Positions 271 to 7,034 are shown, numbered from the stretch's first letter. The stretch: DNA of 45,274 nucleotides from Flavobacteriales bacterium (GCA_018647945.1 JABGSE010000057.1:1-45274); one strand, 5' to 3'. The notes: generated by a model not told the origin, from the sequence alone. Numbers and translations: made by a program.

Positions 271-307
271 TAATATTTGCCTACTTTATAAGGTTTTCAG
301 CTTTCCC
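271..307 (-). promoter_or_regulatory. Shared upstream element, copy A
   Basis: Read on the minus strand it contains GGGAAA (302-307), then a 17-base spacer that includes CTGAAAACCT, then GTAGGC (279-284), CAAATATTAAAA and the ATG of the lipoprotein 20 bases further on. Copies B (1932-1969) and C (2864-2902) match it in sequence and spacing. The layout resembles a promoter for an alternative sigma factor. A conserved leader RNA motif or a duplicated leader is also possible. Confidence 0.5.
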
Positions 308-310
308 TTT

Positions 311-850
311 TTATTTTCTAGAAAACCTACTTTTCTTTTTAGTGTCCTTTTTTTCAGTTTCATCAATTATTTCTTGGGAAACTTTATCATTATTTTCAAT
401 TACAATTACACAAGTATTGCTACAATCTGGGTTTGTATTATACTGTTTAATTGTATTTTCCCAGAGATAAGCGTCTTCACTATTTTCATTACCAGCATCA
501 GTGTAAAAAGCTATCAACTTTTTATCCTTATCAAATGTACAATAGATAGAAGAGGCTTCTGTGAAATAATCCGCTCCTTTTGATTTTACATAATTATTAT
601 CTTTTGATCTTATTTCTAACTTTTTATGTAAATACCTGTATTCAATAATCATTTCACCTTCAGCAAGGTTCTGATAAAAATCAAATGGTTCTACTCCTAA
701 TGTAGTCTGAACTTCATTAGAGGTCATTCCTAGTTCAACATAAAACAATTTATCAATTGTTGTAAAATGTTCCTTCTGTATTTTCTGAGCATTAGTAAGA
801 GTAACTAAACAAACACCTAGAAATATAAATATTCTTGTTAAATTTTTCAT
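311..850 (-). CDS. Secreted protein with GMT-EV (BamE/SmpA-like) motif
   Basis: 179 residues. An N-terminal hydrophobic segment ending near TNAQ (about residue 22) is a Sec signal peptide without a lipobox cysteine, so the product is probably periplasmic. Residues 36-80 carry FYVELGMTSNEV, then LG, P, Y and an alternating strand region. This GMTxxEV...P...Y pattern recalls BamE/SmpA-type folds, but the similarity is weak. The same pattern occurs in the neighbouring 352-residue lipoprotein (RGMTKGEV, residues 74-81), so the two are likely paralogues over this domain. The C-terminus is a basic, lysine-rich tail (KKDTKKKSRFSRK). It lies 10 bases downstream of the 861-1919 gene and is presumably cotranscribed with it. 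Function unknown. Confidence 0.75.
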   Translation of the reverse strand: MKNLTRIFIFLGVCLVTLTNAQKIQKEHFTTIDKLFYVELGMTSNEVQTTLGVEPFDFYQNLAEGEMIIEYRYLHKKLEIRSKDNNYVKSKGADYFTEASSIYCTFDKDKKLIAFYTDAGNENSEDAYLWENTIKQYNTNPDCSNTCVIVIENNDKVSQEIIDETEKKDTKKKSRFSRK

Positions 851-860
851 AATTTTAATT

Positions 861-1919
861 TTATTCGTTATCAGTTATTGTACCAGTTGTTTTTAATTCA
901 ATACCAATTTTACCATTTAAATCGATAAAATCGCATAATGAACAATCTTTATCATTTACTACTTCTTTTTCTCTTTCTACTTTAATGCAAGGATCTCCTT
1001 CACAATTTTTACTTTCATTTAAAACATAGTAGTAATTTTCAGTATCACATGGGCAGTATTTACAAGATTTGTCAGATTTTGTCGCTTCTGAATTATAATT
1101 GATAGCTCCTTCATCCATACATCCTGCAATAAAATCAAATTCTGGAATACATTTCTCACCACAATTTCTTTTCGGATCATAATCTGGATTTGGTTTGTAA
1201 TTACATGGGCAGTATTCGCACCAACCATTATCCTCCAATGCATCCTTATCATAATTAAGAGCTTCAACATCCATACAACCTTTAACTATAATTACAGGAT
1301 ACTTACAACTACCATCATCTAAATTTGCTTGACTATTATAATTTAATGCCTCTTGATCAGTACAACCTAAGCATTTAATATAAGTATCATTTGTATTGCA
1401 AGATTCTTTTACAGTATTGTTAAAACATAACACATCATTTACGATAGCTGATTTCGCTTGTTCAGTTATAATATTATCTAACAATCCATCTCTATAATAA
1501 AGTAATACTTGTTTTCTTTCATTACTATAAATATCTTCTCCAGTCTTTAATCCAGCTTTTTTATGTTCAATATCAGCTTCAAATTCTCTTAATAGATTAC
1601 TATAATTATATACATGAATCTCGCAATTATCAACATTATGGTAAATTTCATAAGGATATAATTTGGTGACAGATAATACCTCTCCTTTTGTCATACCCCT
1701 TTGTAATTTGATTAAATCATTTACTGAGATATTATAATCTGTTATTACCTTATCAAATTTACAACTTCCGTCACTTAAGGTTGCTAACTTATTGTAATTA
1801 ACAGCATTTCTATCAATACACCCTTTAACTTCTTCAATAATAGGAATCTCCTCAATTACCTTTGTTGTTCCGCATGATGTAATAATTATCACCATGAATA
1901 AATATAGAATTTTTTTCAT
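861..1919 (-). CDS. Cysteine-rich lipoprotein with four GCxD-NY-DGSC repeats
   Basis: 352 residues. Lipobox IITSC puts the lipidated cysteine at residue 16. A 21-residue motif of the form GCxDxxAxNYxxxAxxxDGSC occurs at residues 33-53, 185-205, 214-234 and 266-286. Copies 3 and 4 are followed by CPC, and further cysteines follow. Such repeats are familiar in secreted proteins of marine Bacteroidota; the paired cysteines suggest small disulfide-bonded units, possibly metal-stabilised by the conserved Asp and Asn. Between repeats 1 and 2 (about 69-155) lies a domain with GMTKGEV that matches the next gene downstream. Transcription probably starts from shared element B. No enzymatic motif is visible; a surface or periplasmic binding role is inference. 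Confidence 0.8.
   Translation of the reverse strand: MKKILYLFMVIIITSCGTTKVIEEIPIIEEVKGCIDRNAVNYNKLATLSDGSCKFDKVITDYNISVNDLIKLQRGMTKGEVLSVTKLYPYEIYHNVDNCEIHVYNYSNLLREFEADIEHKKAGLKTGEDIYSNERKQVLLYYRDGLLDNIITEQAKSAIVNDVLCFNNTVKESCNTNDTYIKCLGCTDQEALNYNSQANLDDGSCKYPVIIVKGCMDVEALNYDKDALEDNGWCEYCPCNYKPNPDYDPKRNCGEKCIPEFDFIAGCMDEGAINYNSEATKSDKSCKYCPCDTENYYYVLNESKNCEGDPCIKVEREKEVVNDKDCSLCDFIDLNGKIGIELKTTGTITDNE
1062..1823 (-). repeat. Span containing four coding copies of a 21-residue Cys repeat
   Basis: The copies lie at 1761-1823, 1305-1367, 1218-1280 and 1062-1124. Each encodes G-C, D, A, N-Y and a closing C at the same spacing; copies 1 and 2 keep DGSC, while copy 3 has DNGWC and copy 4 SDKSC. 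Copies 3 and 4 add YCPC directly afterwards. Copies 1 and 2 are split by the GMT-EV domain, so the array is not a simple run of tandem units. Confidence 0.75.
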
Positions 1920-1931
1920 AATTATTTATTT

Positions 1932-1969
1932 TAATATTTGACTACTCTATTAAGGTTTTCGTCTTTCCC
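1932..1969 (-). promoter_or_regulatory. Shared upstream element, copy B
   Basis: Minus-strand reading: GGGAAA (1964-1969), an 18-base spacer with GAAAACCTTAATAGA, then GTAGTC (1940-1945), CAAATATTAAAA and the ATG of the repeat lipoprotein after 20 bases. Compared with copies A and C the spacer is one base longer and the box is GTAGTC rather than GTAGGC. It sits between the stop of the membrane-protein gene (1994) and the lipoprotein start (1919). Confidence 0.5.
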
Positions 1970-1993
1970 TATTTTTATTACCCTTTTATTTTG

Positions 1994-2851
1994 TTAAAAT
2001 ATATCTTCTAAAATTTCAGAGAAGAATCCACCTATTACTACATAACTTAAAACTATCCCAATAAATAATATTAAGATTCCATTTTTAGAAATAGCAAATT
2101 CAACTAATTTAATAACTAATTTAATCAAATATTGATAAACTTCTTTAAAAATATAAGTACCAACTAATACAAATGCTGAAACAGCCATGATTCCTAATGA
2201 TGCTAATCCACCAGATTTAAGAAATTCAAAATATGCCGTATATTCATTAAACCCTATAATCCAAATACCATCTGAACCAGAATCAAAATCTACCATTTGT
2301 CCTAATAACTGCAACATATCTGCTAATGGAAAATATACTAATGAACTTAATATTGCAGCAACTAGAGTAAGTATTCCAACTAAAAATAATAGTAAAGATA
2401 ATACTTCACCAAAAATCATAATCATTGTTGGAAATACTGATTTATACATGTAATGTATTAATCCTTCGTATGGTGATTCCTCTAACTGATTAGTTCTTTT
2501 CTTAACAAATAAGAATAAAACATAAATAGTCGCCAGACATAGCACTAAACCAATTAAGAATCCAATCACTGATGTAAATTGTTGCATCCCTTCTAGATTT
2601 TCAAACTTTGAGAAATATCCATAACGATAAGAGTCATCATCTGAAAACATATTTATTATACACTCCCATAAACCTGAGGCTATAATTCCCCATCCTATTA
2701 ATCTAAAGAAGAGAACAATAATAGATTTAAAAATATTACCATTATCGATTCTATCTAATAAGTTTTTTACTTCTGATTCTAACCTATCTCCAAATCCTTG
2801 ATTTGCAGACATAGCGGGAGTCGATTCTTGTGCTACATTTTCATTTTCCAT
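1994..2851 (-). CDS. Multi-span inner-membrane protein of unknown function
   Basis: 285 residues. The first 40 are polar (Gln, Glu, Asn-rich, then amphipathic). Hydrophobic segments follow at roughly 42-66, 92-115, 138-172, 215-237 and 256-280, giving four to six membrane spans; the long third block could be two spans. A short loop rich in Asp, Ser and Tyr (about 69-80) probably faces outward. There is no transporter, kinase or protease motif and I do not recognise the family. It has its own copy (C) of the element found in front of the two lipoprotein units, so it is likely coregulated with them and may work at the same membrane site; that is inference. Confidence 0.75.
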   Translation of the reverse strand: MENENVAQESTPAMSANQGFGDRLESEVKNLLDRIDNGNIFKSIIVLFFRLIGWGIIASGLWECIINMFSDDDSYRYGYFSKFENLEGMQQFTSVIGFLIGLVLCLATIYVLFLFVKKRTNQLEESPYEGLIHYMYKSVFPTMIMIFGEVLSLLLFLVGILTLVAAILSSLVYFPLADMLQLLGQMVDFDSGSDGIWIIGFNEYTAYFEFLKSGGLASLGIMAVSAFVLVGTYIFKEVYQYLIKLVIKLVEFAISKNGILILFIGIVLSYVVIGGFFSEILEDIF

Positions 2852-2863
2852 AATTTATATAAT

Positions 2864-2902
2864 TTTAAATACTGCCTACTCTATTAGGTTTTCAGATTTC
2901 CC
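2864..2902 (-). promoter_or_regulatory. Shared upstream element, copy C
   Basis: Minus-strand reading: GGGAAA (2897-2902), a 17-base spacer containing CTGAAAACCTAATAGA, then GTAGGC (2874-2879) and the ATG 22 bases later. In this copy AGATT just upstream can pair with AATCT across the GGGA, giving a small 5-bp hairpin. A standard-looking TAAATTTG box lies a little further upstream at 2918-2925, so this copy could be part of a transcribed leader rather than the promoter itself. Confidence 0.5.
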
Positions 2903-2917
2903 TTTGAATCTATTTGA

Positions 2918-2925
2918 CAAATTTA
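2918..2925 (-). promoter_or_regulatory. Possible -7 box TAAATTTG
   Basis: A perfect match to the Bacteroidota TAnnTTTG consensus on the minus strand, upstream of shared element C. If used, the transcript would begin just before the GGGAAA box and the element would lie in the 5' leader of the 285-residue membrane protein. No clear TTG -33 box is placed for it, and the surrounding DNA is so AT-rich that a chance match is possible. The rest of the gap up to 3031 is low-complexity A/T with no gene. Confidence 0.35.
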
Positions 2926-4148: not shown

Positions 4149-4736
4149 TTATAATGGAGTTATCTCAGATAAAGGAGAAAATCTGTAAAGTTTCTGAGTA
4201 GAAATTTCTTGACATTTATAATTTTTTCGGAGCTTACAAATTCTAATAAATTGTTGCCCATTATTTATTTTAAATTCATCTCCATCCAGAATTTCAGAAA
4301 CAGTAATTACATCTTTATTATCGTATTTTTTCAGCACTTTTGTTAGTTCAATGTCTCGAACAGTAGTAGCAGCGGGATTGAGTAAATGAGCACTCAACTT
4401 CATTAAAATATCATTTGGGAAAAATGATGGATTTATAAAAGGAAGAATCATTTTTCGGAACTCCTCTTTCCACTCTGAACCATGAGGTTTTACTTTTCTT
4501 CTATACTTTTTCCAAGTACTTGCATGTGCCATTTCATGAACCAAAGTAATCAGAAAAGAATATTGATTTAAAGTTTTATTAATTTTTATCACATTCTTCG
4601 CCCCTATTTTTGGAATAAAAACTCCCAATCTGGATTTATTATTTTTACTTAAAGAGATATGAACCCCAAACTCTTTTTCCCACTTTCTTATTATTATAAG
4701 AGATTTAGGGTTTATATATTCTGAAAGAAAATCCAT
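4149..4736 (-). CDS. SprT-like zinc metalloprotease domain protein
   Basis: 195 residues. The zinc-binding HExxH motif is HEMAH at 67-71, and the next likely ligand is H85 in PHGSEWK, the arrangement of SprT/Spartan-type domains. Eukaryotic Spartan cleaves DNA-protein crosslinks; the role of the bacterial family is not settled. There is no signal peptide, so it should be cytoplasmic. The C-terminal third lacks an obvious zinc-ribbon cysteine set, with only two scattered cysteines near 167 and 175. Its ATG overlaps the feoB stop by one base (TAATG), so it is translationally coupled to feoB. Confidence 0.85.
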   Translation of the reverse strand: MDFLSEYINPKSLIIIRKWEKEFGVHISLSKNNKSRLGVFIPKIGAKNVIKINKTLNQYSFLITLVHEMAHASTWKKYRRKVKPHGSEWKEEFRKMILPFINPSFFPNDILMKLSAHLLNPAATTVRDIELTKVLKKYDNKDVITVSEILDGDEFKINNGQQFIRICKLRKNYKCQEISTQKLYRFSPLSEITPL

Positions 4737-6811
4737 TAACTTAATAGATTATAAGCAACAAAGGAAGATATATATGCAAGTCCAGTCATATAAACAAGTT
4801 GAATTAATGGCCATTTCCATCCTTTAGTTTCTCTATAAACAACTGCAATAGTTGTCATACATTGCATTGCAAATGCATAAAACAACATTAATGATATACC
4901 AACTGCAGTTGTAAAAAATGGTTTCCCTGTTTCTAAATTTTTAGCAGATTTTAATTTCTTTTTTATAGAATAATTATCCGTACCTCCAACGCTATAAATA
5001 GTTGACATGGTCCCCACAAAAACCTCACGAGCAGCAAAAGATGTTATCAAGGAAATCCCAATTCTCCAATCAAATCCTAAAGGTTTAATTACTGGCTCTA
5101 TTGTCTTTCCAATTATACCTGCATAGGAGGCTTCTAATTTTTTTGATTGAATATCATATTCTAGATTCTCTGCCGAAGCATAATCTTTTTCAATTTGCTC
5201 GAATTTCCCCGAAGGAGCATATGAAGATAGAACCCATAAAACTATTGAAATAGCAATAATTACTTTACCAGCATCAAACAAAAATACCTTAACCTTTTCA
5301 ACAATTGTATATAGTACCGTTTTATAATCCGGAATCTTATAAGATGGTATTTCCATTACATAAAAACCCCTTTCTTTTGCTTTTATAATAAATTTCAAAA
5401 TAAATGCCGTAATAAGTGCCGCGATAAATCCAAGTAAATAAAAGGCCATCATCACTAATCCTTGCATATTAAAAGGACCCCAACTTGCAGTTTCAGGAAT
5501 CATCATTGAGATAATTAATGTGTAAACAGGCAATCTAGCAGAACAACTCATTAATGGAACAACAAAAATAGTAATCAACCTTTCTTTAGATGAGGAAATA
5601 GTTCTGGTAGACATAATTGCCGGTACAGCACATGCCGCACCACTTAGCAATGGTATTATTGATCTTCCATTCAGACCAAAACCTCTTAATATCTTATCCA
5701 TAATAAAAGATACTCTTGCCATATATCCAGTATCTTCTAGAAAAACAATAAAAGCAAATAAGAATGCAATTTGAGGTACAAATATGATAATACCACCCAA
5801 TCCCGCTAAAATACCGTTTACAATTAAATCATTTAACACCCCTGGATTCATAGTGTTTGCCACCCAACTGGAAAAAGAAGAAAAACCACTATCAATCCAC
5901 TCCATTGGCAACTGAGACCAAGAGAAAATTGCCTGGAAAATTAAAAACAAAACTAATAAGAAGAATGTGTAACCTAATATTGGATGTAGTAATAAATCAT
6001 CAATCTTTTTTGTAAAATTCCTTTTAATCAACGCTTTGTTTTCTCCAATACATTGATAAAGGATTTTATCAATACTTTTATATCTCCTAACGGTTTCTTT
6101 AGCTTGAAATCTACTTGGAATAAATTTCTCATCTTTAATCAGGACTTCTAGATTAATCTTTGATGCTGAGTTATTATCTACATAGTGTCTACAAAGAGAT
6201 AAAAAACTAGCATAATTATTATCATCTTTTCTAATTATATTGGCATTCTCTATAATATCTGGGAAAATTTCTTTAATATTTAGAATTTCCTTCTTTGGAA
6301 AATTAACAGATAAAATAGTATCTTTTAACTCCTTGATACCTGTTCTTTTTCTAGCATTTATCTCAACAATATTAATACCTAACTGATCTGAAAGATGAGG
6401 TATGTCAATTACAATACCCATATCTCTAGAAATATCAATCATGTTAAGAGCTAAAATTACTTCTCTTTTCAAATCAATAATTTGAGATAGAAATAAAAGA
6501 GATTTTCGTAAATTTGATGAATCTGCAACAACAACAATTACGTCTGGATAATCTTGGTTTGCTTTATTACAAAGTATCTGTTGTGTTACTTTCTCGTCTA
6601 ATGATTTTGAATATAAACTATATGTTCCAGGCAAATCAATAATCTGAGCTTTTGTAGACATGTCTAATTTACAGTTTCCTAGTTTCTTATCTACTGTAAT
6701 ACCTGGATAATTGCCTACTGATTGATTTAAGCCAGTTAATGCATTAAATAAAGTAGACTTTCCAGAATTAGGATTTCCAGCCAATGCAACTTTAATGTTC
6801 TTCTTAATCAT
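4736..6811 (-). CDS. feoB: Ferrous iron transport protein B
   Basis: 691 residues. It imports Fe2+ across the inner membrane using an N-terminal G domain. G1 is GNPNSGKST (12-20), G2 is the Thr of GITV (39), G3 is DLPG (59-62), G4 is NMID (123-126) and a G5-like NARKRTG is at 152-158. The membrane part includes the Gate-region motif ACAVPAIMSTRT with its conserved Cys and the second GAREVFVG-like stretch (AAREVFVG). It lacks a fused FeoA domain, which is encoded separately upstream. The start overlaps feoA by eight bases (ATGATTAA), indicating coupled translation. Confidence 0.96.
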   Translation of the reverse strand: MIKKNIKVALAGNPNSGKSTLFNALTGLNQSVGNYPGITVDKKLGNCKLDMSTKAQIIDLPGTYSLYSKSLDEKVTQQILCNKANQDYPDVIVVVADSSNLRKSLLFLSQIIDLKREVILALNMIDISRDMGIVIDIPHLSDQLGINIVEINARKRTGIKELKDTILSVNFPKKEILNIKEIFPDIIENANIIRKDDNNYASFLSLCRHYVDNNSASKINLEVLIKDEKFIPSRFQAKETVRRYKSIDKILYQCIGENKALIKRNFTKKIDDLLLHPILGYTFFLLVLFLIFQAIFSWSQLPMEWIDSGFSSFSSWVANTMNPGVLNDLIVNGILAGLGGIIIFVPQIAFLFAFIVFLEDTGYMARVSFIMDKILRGFGLNGRSIIPLLSGAACAVPAIMSTRTISSSKERLITIFVVPLMSCSARLPVYTLIISMMIPETASWGPFNMQGLVMMAFYLLGFIAALITAFILKFIIKAKERGFYVMEIPSYKIPDYKTVLYTIVEKVKVFLFDAGKVIIAISIVLWVLSSYAPSGKFEQIEKDYASAENLEYDIQSKKLEASYAGIIGKTIEPVIKPLGFDWRIGISLITSFAAREVFVGTMSTIYSVGGTDNYSIKKKLKSAKNLETGKPFFTTAVGISLMLFYAFAMQCMTTIAVVYRETKGWKWPLIQLVYMTGLAYISSFVAYNLLS

Positions 6812-7034
6812 TATGAGTCTTAACTATTATATTATCTGCATCAGATAATCGAATACTTATTAGTAAATTAGATACCACAACAGCTATAGGATCTGAAAAA
6901 GGAGATTTTCTTTCTACTTCAATCAATTGTCCTGGAGTAACACCCATTTCTAAAAGCTGTTGCTCCAAAAACTCATCTTGGATGGATTCGACAAAAGCCT
7001 TCTCTCCCACTTGTAATTCCGACAATCTTTTCAT
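6804..7034 (-). CDS. feoA: Ferrous iron transport protein A
   Basis: 76 residues, the typical size of this small SH3-like cytoplasmic partner of FeoB. The family pattern is clear: LxELxxGExAxV at the start, then LLEMGVTPG at about 27-36, followed by PIAVVVSN and the closing hydrophobic strand with ISIRLSDADNIIV. It precedes feoB with an eight-base overlap. A TAGATTTG box lies only four bases before its ATG and a 15-base palindrome lies just upstream of that box, so it is probably regulated by iron, possibly as a leaderless transcript. Confidence 0.93.
   Translation of the reverse strand: MKRLSELQVGEKAFVESIQDEFLEQQLLEMGVTPGQLIEVERKSPFSDPIAVVVSNLLISIRLSDADNIIVKTHND

Follow-up and report, generated by a model that had tools for sequence, protein, structure and literature searches.

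The three short elements that precede genes at one end of the window, i.e., the whole stretch of 45,274 nucleotides of Flavobacteriales DNA analysed here, are by their sequence copies of a catalogued cis-regulatory RNA, DUF805b (Rfam RF02914). They extend a known RNA family of orphan function by new members, one of which (copy 2) is missed by the Rfam cut-off. The motif was reportedly first described by Weinberg et al. in 2017, and no paper on DUF805b RNA was found in the literature searched. The best explanation of these elements is probably a riboswitch-like or protein-bound pseudoknot that would act on translation initiation.

Within the window, the pattern GGGAAA-N17/18-GTAGKC has exactly three matches, each of them on the minus strand (279-307, 1940-1969 and 2874-2902), compared with 0.01 expected, and none of 100 shuffled sequences contained three. 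The elements described in an earlier sequence-only reading of this DNA are thus where it had placed them and lie far above chance. The ATGs it had given (258, 1919 and 2851) all open ORFs, and the 20 to 22 bases it had counted from the last box to the ATG were measured as 20, 20 and 22, respectively. It had also claimed a C or G before GAAAACCT, which does not hold, the actual letters being T, C and T.

Around 100 elements from the phylum were collected and parsed. The 88 distinct ones were aligned and a separate parse covered 105 elements; some elements carry AATAGAGTA, and the 3' arm of the second helix was placed by a revised parse. The element is 31-38 nt long and its fold is an H-type pseudoknot, in which a first helix (P1, 3-4 bp) opens into a loop of about 4 nt followed by the 5' arm of a second helix (P2), GAAAA, the 3' arm of P1, a linker, AGTA and the 3' arm of P2. 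The linker is short (mostly 3-11 nt), A-rich and ends in G, and a conserved AGAGUA precedes the P2 3' arm. What had been read as a GGGAAA box is the 5' arm of P1, and the GTAGGC box closes with the P2 3' arm, whose partner resides inside the hairpin loop. Among the 88 aligned elements, 92.5% of the cells are paired versus 65.5% after shuffling and 162 cells carry double changes versus 48, in controls that ignore kinship among the sequences; nonetheless, many separate pair types are seen, P2 occurring as GCC:GGC, TCC:GGA, ACC:GGT, CCC:GGG, GCT:AGC, TTC:GAA, CTC:GAG, TCT:AGA and GAC:GTC, the last being that of copy 2 of the window. Pairing drops to 12%-52% in every slid register, and all seven pairs, including all four of P1, show changes on both sides. 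P2 alone is 98.1% paired with 43 double-change cells versus 10 in the shuffled sets, and in the separate parse it is fully paired in 94 of 105 elements, compared with 45 +/- 4 (maximum 64) after permutation. Although unpaired, GAAAA (104/105) and AGTA (102/105) are near-invariant, as would be expected of a binding pocket or a protein site. P1 alone contributes only -1.3 to -1.7 kcal/mol, and the fold therefore probably needs a partner.

The window copies share with DUF805b (RF02914, clan CL00115) the consensus, the P1 stem, GAAAA, AGAGUAGG and a place before genes in Bacteroidota. P1 is present in each of them with 3-4 pairs, and GAAAA and AGUA occur in all three, copy 1 having AAAGUA. In copy 1 (278..310, minus strand), where the pairing was assigned by inspection and parse, P1 joins 309-306 with 293-290 (4 bp), P2 joins 301-299 (GCU) with 281-279 (GGC), and the conserved GAAAA lies at 298-294. 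In copy 2 (1939..1972, minus strand), P1 joins 1970-1968 with 1955-1953 (3 bp) and P2 joins 1963-1961 (GAC) with 1942-1940 (GUC). This P2 is a variant of GCC:GGC with compensating changes, and P2 covariation supports the copy: its 3' arm seems aberrant in reading GTC instead of GGC but is matched by the loop change to GAC. In copy 3 (2873..2905, minus strand), P1 joins 2903-2901 with 2888-2886 (3 bp), and P2 joins 2896-2894 (UCU) with 2876-2874 (GGC), two of the three pairs being in register and the outer one being a U-C mismatch. When copy 3 was folded with its flanks, the prediction contained a competing hairpin, AGAUU/AAUCU (2894-2912, minus strand), which the copy could form with its 5' flank and which would exclude the pseudoknot. 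Scored with the RF02914 covariance model, which holds P1 only, copies 1 and 3 reach 37.7 and 42.5 bits, respectively, above the gathering cut-off of 35.6 bits, whereas copy 2, in which the P2 letters have changed together, reaches 17.9 bits (E 0.1-0.15) and stays under it.

All genes behind these copies are on the minus strand. Copy 3 precedes an ORF for a 285-aa multi-span membrane protein (1994..2851). Copy 2 precedes a 352-aa lipoprotein (861..1919), followed by a 179-aa protein with a signal-peptide-like start (311..850) that is without an element of its own, and copy 1 precedes a lipoprotein cut by the contig end (1..258). A Pfam scan returned no family over the cut-off for the 285-aa protein, the 352-aa lipoprotein or the contig-cut lipoprotein, the last having only a sub-threshold match to DUF7292. 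The 352-aa lipoprotein contains several GCxDxxAxNYNxxAxxxDGSC-like repeats with no Pfam match. Intergenic gaps between the four genes are 74, 10 and 52 nt, with copies 2 and 1 in those of 74 and 52 nt, respectively, behind the preceding gene. No terminator-like site was found, and a clear sigma-A -7 box was read upstream of copy 3 alone (putative, TAAATTTG, 2918..2925, minus strand), none being clear at copies 1 and 2. Because of the short same-strand gaps, the lack of a terminator-like site and the single clear -7 box at copy 3, the four genes likely form one operon with the pseudoknot before three of them, and the earlier description of three separate units is on the same grounds doubtful. 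Further upstream, the window encodes FeoA-like (76 aa) and FeoB-like (691 aa) proteins (4736-7034, minus strand), a ferrous-iron transport pair named by inspection, and beyond it SprT-like and mannose-1-phosphate guanylyltransferase-like proteins (Pfam).

The sequence-only reading had noted that the downstream genes are not homologous over their starts, and the proteins are indeed unrelated there. Copies 1 and 2, however, are near-identical past the element, up to ATGAAAAAA, which suggests that the leader itself was probably duplicated. Because these near-identical leaders differ in P2 in a paired way (GCT:GGC in copy 1 and GAC:GTC in its sibling), the P2 of copy 2 looks like a compensatory change after the duplication.

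A search of the whole genome and of related genomes had been proposed, and the element is present well beyond the window. The genome itself has at least five DUF805b copies, two of which lie on other contigs (C67:1772-1806, 50.2 bits; C24:17896-17928, 33.7 bits). Matches with lower scores resemble chance hits, because this loose threshold also gives matches in 14 of 14 control genomes. With E limited to 0.001, matches occur in 30 of 60 relatives, with 1-6 copies per genome, and in none of the 14 control genomes. A phylum-wide survey at E up to 1e-6 gave matches in 52 of 198 genomes, with up to 7 copies, and the records that carry the consensus pattern are, among the named matches listed, from Bacteroidota and one member of the Chlorobiota.

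Ribosome loading in Bacteroidota does not depend on Shine-Dalgarno (SD) sequences. Downstream of 99 of the 105 elements an ORF of at least 40 aa starts within 60 nt, and in these 99 the median distance from the P2 3' end to the ATG is 21 nt (quartiles 19-23). A is frequent in the spacer (77% at -3, 74% at -12 and 77% at -13), and SD-like strings are few, occurring in 5 of 94. Translation initiation in F. johnsoniae benefits from A at -3, -6, -12 and -13, and mRNAs there are poorly paired from -20 to +20 (PMC6847099). Ending about 21 nt before the ATG, the pseudoknot therefore lies at the upstream border of this unstructured ribosome-loading window. Moreover, sigma-A -7 boxes (TAnnTTTG) are over-represented 28-16 nt before P1 in the set of elements (10 versus 1.8 expected), and from the putative box at 2925-2918 the RNA of copy 3 would be predicted to start roughly 5-10 nt ahead of the pseudoknot. 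In first-gene copies, the mRNA would on this basis begin just before the pseudoknot.

By a crude heuristic based on signal peptide and lipobox, 66 of 99 targets are exported, compared with 96 of 250 neighbouring ORFs. The enrichment in exported proteins agrees in part with the "small, dedicated envelope regulon" proposed earlier, but proteases, PixA and DUF2589 proteins, RiPP-like precursors and phage ParB-like proteins are targets too. Beyond exported proteins in general, the targets include a bacteriorhodopsin-like protein, subtilases, the PixA inclusion-body protein and DUF2589, DUF6345, TRL-like, DoxX-like and DUF805 proteins. Small proteins with GG-type leaders, named by inspection and resembling RiPP/bacteriocin precursors, are often found behind the element, both in hosts and on two phage contigs (loci L065, L070, L079, L106, L116, L155, L229, L233, L295 and L313). 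Element copies are also located inside gene arrays. In a genome of the same family (G026), the pair of 352-aa and 179-aa genes is conserved with 80% identity and keeps its own element, with a P1 of ATGG/CCAT versus TAGG/CCTT in the window, but what follows the next element is an unrelated barrel-like protein. In a genome of the same genus (G003), the ortholog of the 285-aa gene (90% identical) is without the element, and the element behind this ortholog precedes a different lipoprotein. From such comparisons, the element appears to have been gained, lost and recombined with genes.

The element is also carried by phages. The pattern with which IMG/VR was scanned is short and allows many chance matches, and P1 pairing, downstream ORFs and family scores were therefore checked. 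Among the matches listed, P1 is formed in 75 of 84, an ORF is also downstream in 66, and the spacing to the start has a median of 21 nt (quartiles 19-22.75). The Rfam cut-off is exceeded in 34 of 40 viral records among the matches listed, with 1-3 copies per record at E up to 0.001; some of these records may be prophages or fragments, and related phages were counted separately. The element is also contained in ten records from Flavobacterium phage isolates (lillamy/morran group). In Flavobacterium phage lillamy9-1 (MN812212.1 12780-12815, equal to L398:2501-2536), it fills a 59-nt gap in a gene run before gp041, 20 nt from the start, and gp041 is annotated with similarity to Pfam PF02195, the ParB N-terminal domain. 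Among the matches listed, 18 of 66 phage targets are ParB-like by a motif test, an identity confirmed by PHROGs for both motif-positive targets scanned, and 10 of 66 form a family that starts with MFxLR. DUF805b pseudoknots are widespread in Bacteroidota phages (viral loci L278-L357; L398), often before ParB-like genes.

In the proposed mechanism, the element would be a 5'-leader H-type pseudoknot ending about 21 nt before the AUG, beside the A-rich unstructured loading window. P1 would enclose a loop with the P2 5' arm and GAAAA, and the linker with AGAGUA would lead to the P2 3' arm. A trans signal, either a small ligand or a protein, would recognise the invariant GAAAA and AGAGUA bases, and this recognition would stabilise or disrupt a marginally stable pseudoknot, the state of which would set the translation initiation rate gene by gene, also inside operons and in phages. 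The data show the family, the pseudoknot, its spacing, the kinds of target and the copies in phages, whereas both the action on translation and the trans signal are what we infer from these features, as the most economical reading. Folding of copies 1 and 2 gave no alternative structure sequestering the AUG region, and therefore no on/off switch is visible in their sequence and start-codon sequestration was rejected. The imperfect P2 of copy 3 counts against the proposed mechanism, and the diverse targets do not point to one metabolite. Cyclic di-GMP was rejected as the signal, GGDEF being absent from all 15 element-rich genomes.

A special case of this explanation, in which the element would be the site of an RNA-binding protein that represses or activates translation and not a ligand riboswitch, is held tentatively, at somewhat less than even chance. 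Small weak helices with invariant unpaired bases are in line with such a site, and diverse targets together with use by phages would suit a global regulator. However, none of the 15 element-rich genomes has Hfq or CsrA, and five of the 15, among them that of the window, have no RRM_1 proteins; all three were rejected as universal partners. Fixed spacing would also be in line with a constitutive role, as an enhancer of translation or a stability element at the 5' end. Such a fixed 5' structure would boost translation or shield the end of the mRNA without sensing any signal. Its spread to unrelated genes and phages and the likely position of first-gene copies at the RNA 5' end agree with this, but we consider it distinctly unlikely, as the invariant GAAAA and AGAGUA exceed the needs of a protective hairpin, copies internal to operons and in phages are probably not at a 5' end, and most genes lack the element, as do many of the genomes surveyed across the phylum (52 of 198 being positive).

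The position of the element between promoter and gene could also be that of a transcription attenuator or a DNA operator. This is very improbable, since no terminator follows the element and the roughly 21 nt left before the ATG give no room for one, and an operator need not show RNA covariation. The two-box promoter for an alternative (ECF-type) sigma factor, which was the main proposal of the sequence-only reading, owes its appeal to two conserved hexamers 17-18 nt apart, their constant distance to the ATG and the enrichment in exported targets. A mapped flavobacterial ECF motif (SM6), which has this two-box look and a fixed gene distance in common with the element, contains a CGT -10 box (PMC9723704); such a box was looked for in the element and none was found, and the boxes here covary as RNA helices. 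In fact, the box letters change in pairs that preserve the helices, on all seven pairs, and the promoter reading is disfavoured because a promoter needs no complementarity between loop and tail. Conservation is also strongest in the "spacer" and linker, and it is upstream of the element that sigma-A -7 boxes are enriched. With covariation and motif as grounds for its rejection, and the Rfam match against it, the ECF promoter is hardly credible. The leader RNA that the same reading had named as a fallback is the correct one, given the cis-regulatory Rfam match and the covariation.

A broader proposal, that DUF805b is a phylum-wide translation-initiation switch in which one trans signal, read by a 33-nt pseudoknot beside the ribosome-loading window, coordinates exported and specialised host proteins and which phages have taken up, is somewhat unlikely. 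If true, phages would use a host switch, in many cases ahead of ParB-like genes, to adjust the timing of their own genes to the state of the host. Backed by covariation, set at a fixed 21 nt from the AUG and present in Flavobacterium phage isolates, the pseudoknot makes DUF805b directly testable, as a candidate translational control element in a phylum without Shine-Dalgarno sites. The case also calls for caution, because what looks in a sequence like a "two-box promoter" can be a set of RNA helix arms.

Among known systems, the Flavo-1 RNA motif was likewise found computationally and is widespread in Flavobacteriaceae, but it is a distinct Rfam family with no match in the window region. The preQ1-I riboswitch, too, is an H-type pseudoknot of very small size that lies immediately before the ribosome-binding region. 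The likeness is one of architecture only, since the conserved bases differ, no link to queuosine genes is visible, and the preQ1-I profile is not among the Rfam matches at E up to 10. Another known system is the DUF805 RNA (RF03081) of the same clan, the 3' half of which is the same element as DUF805b. It has an extra 5' hairpin (GUGG...CCAC), which does not precede the window copies, and DUF805b is the better clan match at all three window sites. The loop of this DUF805 hairpin resembles the P2 5' arm (UCUU above AAGA in L109; loci L088, L101, L109, L111 and L112), a likeness from which the two DUF805 loops might compete for one 3' arm.
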